DNA of 64,000 nucleotides, from assembly GCA_028285645.1 (NCBI GenBank), contig JANQOV010000068.1, forward strand, positions 24,733 through 88,732, given 5' to 3'. Source of the stretch: Hyphococcus sp. (lineage in GTDB: Bacteria; Pseudomonadota; Alphaproteobacteria; Caulobacterales; Parvularculaceae). The notes beneath the pieces were generated by a model. The model searched no databases, was not told where the DNA came from, and saw only the letters and a program-made list of their open reading frames with translations. This document shows, one piece after another, positions 62,578-64,000 of the stretch (its first letter is position 1; every line of letters starts with the position of its first letter). Made by a program: the position numbers and the translations under genes.

Positions 62578-63063
62578 ATGGTAAAGCCCATGGCCGCGAC
62601 GAAACGCCTTAAGGATTTCCTCCTTCCCGCCATTCTTGTGATTGGCGTTGCCGCATTCGCCATTGCCGGGCGCACGTCTGCGACCGACGCCGAATATACC
62701 TATGAAGGCGAGCCGGAAGTCGTTGCGGCGACTTTTTCGTCAGCATGGTGTTCCGCCTGCAAGGTGCTGGAGCCGCGCCTTGCGAAGGTCATTCCAGACT
62801 TTGCCGGCAAGCCAGTAAAATTCGTTGAGCTTGATTTCACGTTTGGTCAACGCGCGGAAATTAAAGAGCTTGCTGAGCGAGAAGGGCTTGGGGACGTCTA
62901 TCCGCGCTTTGAAGGCGCTACGGGCTTTACGCTGCTCGTCGATGCAGAGACGGGCGAGATTATTGATATGCTGACAGTCGAGCATTCAAAAGAAGCGATG
63001 CGAACCGTCATTGCACAGACAATTGCCCTGGCGTCCCGCGCTGAAACGTCCAAAAACCCCTAA
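62578..63063 (+). CDS. membrane-anchored thioredoxin-like protein
   Basis: N-terminal TM; VVAATFSSAWCSACKVLEPRLAKVIPDF with CxxC (CSAC). Confidence 0.85.
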   Translation: MVKPMAATKRLKDFLLPAILVIGVAAFAIAGRTSATDAEYTYEGEPEVVAATFSSAWCSACKVLEPRLAKVIPDFAGKPVKFVELDFTFGQRAEIKELAEREGLGDVYPRFEGATGFTLLVDAETGEIIDMLTVEHSKEAMRTVIAQTIALASRAETSKNP

Positions 63064-63243
63064 AATTGTGAATTACTTTCACGCAAGCGGGCGCCGATTT
63101 TTCTTGAAATCGCAGTAGAATTGGTCCAAGCTTTTTTCTGTTCCGAGGGGCGTCCCGCCTGTCGCCAATGAACGACAGCTCGTGCGACGCGCACCTTCAA
63201 GGTCTGCCCGACAAACTCGATAAAGGGCGACCGACAAGCAATG

Positions 63244-63325
63244 CGCGCCAGGGAGCAATGGGCAAATGGGACTGAGATGAACCCTTCGAACCTGATCCGG
63301 GTCATGCCGGCGCAGGGACGGAGCG
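63244..63325 (+). promoter_or_regulatory. TPP riboswitch (THI-box) aptamer
   Basis: CTGAGATGAACCCTTCGAACCTGATCCGGGTCATGCCGGCGCAGGGA, near-canonical THI-box 3' half; P1 candidate CGCGCC/GGAGCG; P3 arm not clearly paired. Confidence 0.88.
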
Positions 63326-63369
63326 ATTGGGGCGCGGCATTCCGCAAAGGTGTTGCGTTTCAAAGTCGA

Positions 63370-63414
63370 TTTCCTCATCGCCGGATCCCAAAGGCTTAAG
63401 CTGCGGTGAGGAGA
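63370..63414 (+). promoter_or_regulatory. SD-sequestering hairpin, likely expression platform of the TPP riboswitch
   Basis: TTTCCTCATCGC (63370-63381) pairs with GCGGTGAGGAGA (63403-63414), 12 bp with two G-U pairs, masking the GAGGAG SD of the ATG at 63418. Confidence 0.65.
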
Positions 63415-63417
63415 CCG

Positions 63418-64000
63418 ATGCCATTGTCAGGTTGCGTTAGGGTCAAATTAATAGAGAACCGTCACGGCTTCCGCCGTGTACGGTGTTTTTTGCTTTCCGC
63501 CATCCTGGCTGCTTTGAGCGCGGCCTGTGCGTCTCATGCGCAAGAAGGCGGCCAAGCCGGAAACAGCACTGAGGTAGCGGATGGCCCCTGCGCTGAGCAG
63601 GCCCATGACGGCGCCGACTATGTGGTCTGCCGCTTTCAGCCCGGCGCTGATATGCGGCTCTTTCTCAACAATGAAGCCGGCGAGCCTTACAAGCATTTCA
63701 ACTGGGTAAACGAGGCGCTTTCGGGCGCCGGCGAGCGCCTTGTCTTCGCCATGAACGCCGGCATGTATCACGAAGATAGATCGCCCGTGGGCTATTATCG
63801 CGGGGCCGGCAAAGACGTAACGCCTATCAACGACAATAACGGCCCCGGCAACTTTCACTTAAAGCCAAACGGGATTTTCTTCATTTTGGAAAACGGTTTT
63901 GCAGGCGTCGAGGAAACGAGTGTTTTCTTGATGACGAAGCGCCCGCCGCCGGCTTACGCCACCCAATCGGGCCCGATGTTAGTGATTGATGGGAGTTTGC
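63418..64000 (+). CDS. phosphodiester glycosidase (DUF2233)-family secreted protein, truncated by window edge
   Basis: MPLSGCVRVKLIENRHGFRRVRCFLLSAILAALSAACASHAQ... then LVFAMNAGMYHEDRSPVGYYRGAGKDVTPINDNNGPGNFHLKPNGIFFILENG...YATQSGPMLVIDGSL. Confidence 0.83.
   Translation, partial: MPLSGCVRVKLIENRHGFRRVRCFLLSAILAALSAACASHAQEGGQAGNSTEVADGPCAEQAHDGADYVVCRFQPGADMRLFLNNEAGEPYKHFNWVNEALSGAGERLVFAMNAGMYHEDRSPVGYYRGAGKDVTPINDNNGPGNFHLKPNGIFFILENGFAGVEETSVFLMTKRPPPAYATQSGPMLVIDGSL

Follow-up and report, generated by a model that had tools for sequence, protein, structure and literature searches.

The window (the whole 64,000-nt stretch of DNA that was analyzed) carries, on the + strand at its 3' end, a thioredoxin-like gene (62578–63063; PF00085), an extended TPP riboswitch-type element (63140–63324), a second conserved hairpin referred to here as HP2 (63365–63419) and the 5' part of a gene encoding a phosphodiester-glycosidase-like secreted protein (63418–64000; hereafter NAGPA), whose first codons contain a terminator-like hairpin (63458–63491). 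As the initial annotation had proposed for an ATG about 90 nt downstream of a THI-box, the NAGPA-like gene opens with an ATG at 63418, preceded by GAGGAG and located 94 nt past the 3' end of the aptamer (63324). The window fragment scores above the gathering threshold of the Pfam family PF09992 (27.1 vs. 25 bits), and the full-length ortholog of Marinicaulis flavus (G022) reaches 75 bits. A search of solved structures with this full-length ortholog returned no match, and among the papers searched, none joined "TPP riboswitch" and "phosphodiester glycosidase". The upstream neighborhood is constant: essentially all loci have the thioredoxin-like gene 5' of the element, with a small gene intervening in some. 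No promoter was recognized for the element by our scan.

The window ends with contig C156 (position 88732 of the contig), inside the NAGPA gene. The minus strand of contig C9 opens with the last 86 codons of the same gene; residues 13–178 of the ortholog are matched on C156 and residues 185–263 at the end of C9. Because the gene is split between both, the two contigs are very probably adjacent, with probably a few codons missing between them. Past NAGPA, C9 presents an opposite-strand amidohydrolase-type ORF, a canonical TPP riboswitch and thiC. The possibility raised earlier that the gene heads an operon with a thiamine gene beyond 64000 is therefore borne out insofar as thiC follows, but thiC is preceded by a canonical riboswitch of its own and is separated from NAGPA by an opposite-strand ORF. 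The general order of the locus is purA, the thioredoxin-like gene, the extended element, variable genes, the canonical TPP riboswitch and thiC, the latter lying 0.4–7 kb 3' of the extended element behind its own riboswitch.

We defined the complete TPP aptamer as 63140–63324 (185 nt) using an alignment of 27 sequences (A1) and its pair counts. The initial annotation had set the start of a THI-box at 63244. The THI-box is real, but its true start is 63140: the earlier coordinates covered the 3' half only and missed the 5' strands of P1, P2 and P3 as well as most of an insertion of ~100 nt. The suggested check with the Rfam model RF00059, run as a permissive scan of 63100–63500 (401 nt), did yield a match (63240–63336, + strand; E = 6e-9, or 1.3e-8 genome-wide), but its score remained below the gathering score despite this strong E-value (49.7 vs. 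54.3 bits). When the whole window was scanned with Rfam at gathering scores, no TPP element was detected and a serC leader alone was reported. The P4/P5 half of the RF00059 alignment is good and the P2/P3 half is broken, a misalignment caused by the P3 insertion. When the weak elements of relatives were aligned with 150 nt of upstream sequence, GUUCCGAGGGGCGUCCCGCC appeared strictly conserved ~100–150 nt 5' of the UGAGA box. This segment, located ~100 nt 5' of the start that was first annotated, supplies the missing 5' sides of P1, P2 and P3, and the element of the window scores 184.9 bits under a dedicated covariance model.

The element presents the P1–P2–P3–P4–P5 three-way junction fold. P1 pairs 63140–63145 with 63319–63324 (GUUCCG with a CGGA/GAC end) and P2 pairs 63146–63149 with 63282–63285 (AGGG with CCCU). 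The P3 arm extends from 63152 to 63272 with GUCCC and GGGAC at its base: GUCCCGCC (63152–63159) pairs with GGC (63261–63263) and GGGAC (63268–63272), which are separated by a 4-nt bulge. The five lower pairs of P3 are invariant (27/27) and the next three are 96% paired. The pyrimidine-sensor motif UGAGA (63273–63277) is likewise invariant (27/27), and the pyrophosphate-sensor arm P4/P5 (63291–63316; CCUGAUCCGGGUCAUGCCGGCGCAGG) has 98.6% of its cells paired and a high RF00059 posterior. Invariant columns of A1 comprise UGAGA (T134–A138), CCUGA (C152–A156), GCG (G171–G173), the GGCG of P5/P4 and the G equivalent to thiM G19 (G11), which we take to be the TPP contacts established from thiM crystal structures. 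The element is a TPP riboswitch-type aptamer, and these invariant contact motifs predict that it binds TPP. TPP riboswitches usually, though not by strict definition, precede genes of thiamine biosynthesis or transport; here the next gene is NAGPA-like, and it varies in relatives.

The structured P3 insertion (63160–63260; ~100 nt) consists of four helices: the hairpin P3a (63161–63164/63173–63176), P3b (63178–63181/63253–63256), P3c (63188–63193/63242–63247) and P3d (63195–63197/63236–63238). Across the 27 sequences of A1, 97.9% of the cells of the element fold are paired relative to 30–45% in slid controls. Nine pairs are doubly changed, with 26 doubly changed cells for 7.6 expected, and none of 500 shuffles matched these covariation values. 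Of these nine pairs, seven lie in the helices of the insertion (one in P3a, three in P3b, one in P3c and two in P3d), and the strongest single covarying pair lies in P3c (G-C in 14, A-U in 8 and G-U in 5 sequences). Several bases of the insertion are unpaired yet invariant (C27, G47, C110 and A111 in element numbering). The conserved fold and these unpaired bases suggest that the P3 arm may have a function beyond spacing. We rejected the insertion as a dispersed repeat, its pattern occurring once in the genome, and neither the insertion nor HP2 gave a meaningful Rfam score to another known RNA family up to an E-value of 10. Several sequences (L038, L039, L041, L042, L052, L055, L061 and L062) present an extra small hairpin of the type CUAAC-AAG-GUUAG in A1 columns 129–145, between the 3' strands of P3c and P3b.

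Relative to the RF00059 aptamer, the element shares the order of P1 to P5, the motifs UGAGA and CCUGAU...GGCG..AGG and a thiC-linked locus. It differs by its ~100-nt conserved multi-helix P3 structure, which reaches a 336-nt form of the element in the genus g3, by the absence of a fixed target gene and by being misaligned or underscored by the model. Long P3 arms are known from fungal TPP riboswitches, where P3 averages ~150 nt and reaches 172 nt, as compared with 18 nt in E. coli, and RF00059 truncates these riboswitches when P3 exceeds ~60 nt (PMC11683625). As in fungi, P3 exceeds the rest of the aptamer, but our element is bacterial and lies outside introns, and its arm is conserved in sequence and fold across genera with invariant unpaired bases. 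Variable insertions of riboswitches are usually nonconserved stem-loops (PMC2258182); the unusual part of the element is the conserved, multi-helix character of its insertion. These results indicate a TPP riboswitch of a new architectural variety, in which a bacterial P3 arm approaches fungal size. The standard RNA model misses or truncates the whole group, and further such riboswitches may therefore be hidden from it.

We further analyzed the distribution of the element by searching 59 relatives with RF00059. Nearly every genome of the genus presented two TPP elements, a canonical one (57–75 bits) and a weak, short one (35–52 bits); whenever both were found on one contig, they were on the same strand with the weak element upstream. 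In this genome, the search revealed one further clear TPP element, located 5' of thiC. The extended element measures 155–207 nt across relatives and 334–336 nt in g3 (L063, 4766–5101; L095, 2686–3019). In the g3 version, ~150 nt are added at the tip of the P3 insertion. We then searched 200 genomes of the order with R1, a covariance model built on the complete element. Genomes of Parvularculaceae scored 149–190 bits, and the other TPP riboswitches of the order at most 82 bits among the matches listed. Members outside the training set (L091, L101, L104, L081 and L090) scored 161–190 bits, and the g3 version was recovered in two fragments scoring 61 and 24 bits. In this same search, the genera g2 and g7 of Parvularculaceae presented ordinary TPP elements only. 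A conserved 24-base pattern of the element matched 33 stretches in GTDB genomes, all titled Parvularculaceae or Alphaproteobacteria; the isolates Marinicaulis flavus SY-3-19 and Amphiplicatus metriothermophilus were among them. Among the matches listed, the extended-arm element is found in this one bacterial family only.

The 5' strand UUCCGAGGGGCG and the 3' strand ACGGA are nearly identical in the extended element and in the canonical thiC riboswitch of the same genomes; the two are therefore likely paralogues. The canonical element differs by its short P3, by a long P3a after UGAGA, by scores above the Rfam cut-off (57–75 bits) and by a start codon that often lies just 3' of it.

HP2 has a 17-bp interrupted stem with a small inner stem and presents eight doubly changed pairs, a value reached by none of 500 shuffles (30 sequences). 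It was found in nearly all loci at a spacing from the aptamer that varies from a few nucleotides to ~90 nt, and sequence conservation stops at it. The genome contains its pattern only once, which excludes a dispersed repeat. The 3' strand of HP2 bears the Shine-Dalgarno-like GAGGAG directly before the ATG, but in most species GAGGAG is not directly followed by a start codon, and a general role as Shine-Dalgarno sequester was rejected. We also rejected base pairing between the HP2 loop (CCGGAUC) and P4/P5 (GAUCCGG), which is present here but uncompensated in G009, G022 and G025. The core of the loop (63394–63401; columns 32–39 of alignment A2) is an octamer, mostly self-complementary, whose bases change together (GCUUAAGC, GCAAUUGC, GCUAUAGC, ACAAUUGU). 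Judging from this symmetry, the octamer might serve RNA dimers or a dimeric protein.

The terminator-like hairpin (ACCGUCACGGCUUCCGCCGUGUACGGU-G-UUUUUU; six T) has a predicted energy of −17.4 kcal/mol. The scan identified one terminator-type site relative to 0.9 expected. Terminator-like hairpins occur 65–85 nt 3' of HP2 in ~8 loci, the strongest being the one described here, and those with good U-tracts represent a minority of loci. Such hairpins are also present in control stretches (13 vs. 9 and 5 of 34), and their recurrence 3' of HP2 is thus suggestive only. Together with the alternative 5' fold described below, the hairpin of the window suggests transcriptional control, in which it would serve as a terminator.

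The genes that follow the element are variable. Based on ORF calls, not transcripts, NAGPA is the first same-strand gene in ~9 of 34 loci, this genome included; elsewhere, this place is taken by an OMP barrel, a DUF4136-like protein or a small secreted protein. About one-third of the loci have no intact same-strand gene before an opposite-strand gene or the riboswitch of thiC. The small secreted family (GYEIIxVDAPVGxANARFILRK...YSC) is the recurrent first gene in G020, G025 and G027, and the one member tested matched no NCBIfam family. Conservation of the riboswitch–glycosidase adjacency, which the initial annotation had proposed to check, did not hold up. Indeed, ten genomes without NAGPA ortholog (E ≤ 1e-8 over the whole genome; G002, G003, G008, G016, G020, G021, G026, G112, G117 and G122) keep the element at 159–190 bits, the same range as genomes bearing the gene. 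NAGPA was rejected as the conserved target on these grounds: the gene has been lost without loss of the element, which argues that the next gene cannot account for its whole output. The RNA thus persists after the loss of its neighbor, a sensor that appears separable from its target.

The interpretation that we favor as most likely, with moderate confidence, is a TPP-responsive leader RNA of variant architecture with exchangeable targets. In this RNA, the enlarged P3 forms a conserved multi-helix domain of ~100 nt, and the aptamer is followed by the independent HP2 and, here, by the terminator-like hairpin. Binding of TPP would lock P1, P2 and P3 so that transcription is stopped or ribosome access is blocked before the next gene. 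Without TPP, the 5' strand would pair with the insertion (GAGGGGCGUC with GACGCGCA.CUC), allowing read-through. The output would be the NAGPA-like gene here and, in relatives, whichever gene occupies that place, often one for an envelope or secreted protein. We infer the direction of control, the use of the terminator and the alternative 5' fold. The RNAalifold consensus is a mutually exclusive fold of the 5' strand with the insertion's own 5' strand; this fold is supported by hardly any compensatory changes specific to it and could represent the TPP-free or co-transcriptional state. The covariation of the aptamer and of HP2, the invariant contact motifs, the scores of members outside the training set, the recurrent terminator-like hairpins, the RNAalifold consensus and the frequent secreted or envelope nature of the first same-strand gene speak for such a leader. 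The loci without same-strand gene speak against it, as do the minority of good terminators and their presence in control stretches, the few compensatory changes of the alternative fold, the failure to recognize a promoter and the lack of an evident route from ligand to output, HP2 being self-contained and variably spaced.

Alternatively, the aptamer, HP2 and a terminator might form a stand-alone TPP-sensing RNA, either active in trans or with a stability controlled by TPP, its neighbors being incidental; we regard this as possible but doubtful. The full score of the element in the ten genomes without NAGPA fits such an RNA, as do the loci with convergent genes or nothing after the element (G003, G015, G018, G002 and L104), the end of conservation at HP2 and the terminator-like hairpins that come next in several loci. 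However, no trans target is known, terminators are inconsistent between species and a same-strand gene does come next in about two-thirds of the loci. Slightly more doubtful still is the form in which regulation would operate through the extended P3 and HP2, possibly with two inputs and in trans, with a conserved output other than the next gene. Riboswitch-controlled or riboswitch-derived small RNAs such as Rli55 and SreA of Listeria similarly show that a metabolite-sensing RNA is not bound to act on the next gene. To our knowledge, no TPP-sensing member of this group has been described.

Spaced tandem control of the thiC unit, with the extended element first, the canonical element second and a transcript from the thioredoxin-like region, appears unlikely. 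In three genomes (G002, G021 and L091, the latter from Amphiplicatus), the canonical element lies 350–490 nt 3' on the same strand with no gene or a mere remnant in between, and elements on one contig are always on the same strand. In most genomes, this one included, they are nevertheless separated by 1–7 kb, often with opposite-strand genes. In a few species, the locus resembles the tandem TPP riboswitches reviewed in PMC9481103 in having two same-strand aptamers before thiC, but the two aptamers described here differ in architecture and lie 350–490 nt apart at the closest (the same three genomes) and kilobases apart in most.

We consider it improbable that the element is a thiamine-regulon switch dedicated to a secreted glycosidase salvaging a thiamine precursor or conjugate. 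Direct adjacency was observed here and in ~8 relatives, and in many genomes of another family (f2) NAGPA orthologs share the strand of the thiC riboswitch and lie 2–15 kb 5' of it. Yet the element is kept in genomes lacking the gene, f2 links NAGPA to thiC without the extended element, and the substrate of the glycosidase is not known. Since the linkage exists in f2 without the element, it probably predates it. Linkage of NAGPA with the thiC riboswitch, the gene usually lying 5' on the same strand, was observed in f2 and in G054, G101 and G146, and its recurrence across families hints at a possible old functional tie. Finally, a decayed, non-functional THI-box lacking P3, as the score below gathering and the poor P3 of the RF00059 alignment could imply, was refuted once the missing strands appeared upstream in the alignment, conserved and covarying in 27 genomes, and retains next to no credibility.

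The control target of this apparently orphan riboswitch is testable in Marinicaulis flavus and Amphiplicatus metriothermophilus, both of which are cultured. Elsewhere in the window, the serC leader (RF00517; 54954–55006, + strand; 50.3 bits) is followed by ORFs of 388 and 526 aa, consistent with an ordinary serC–serA arrangement.
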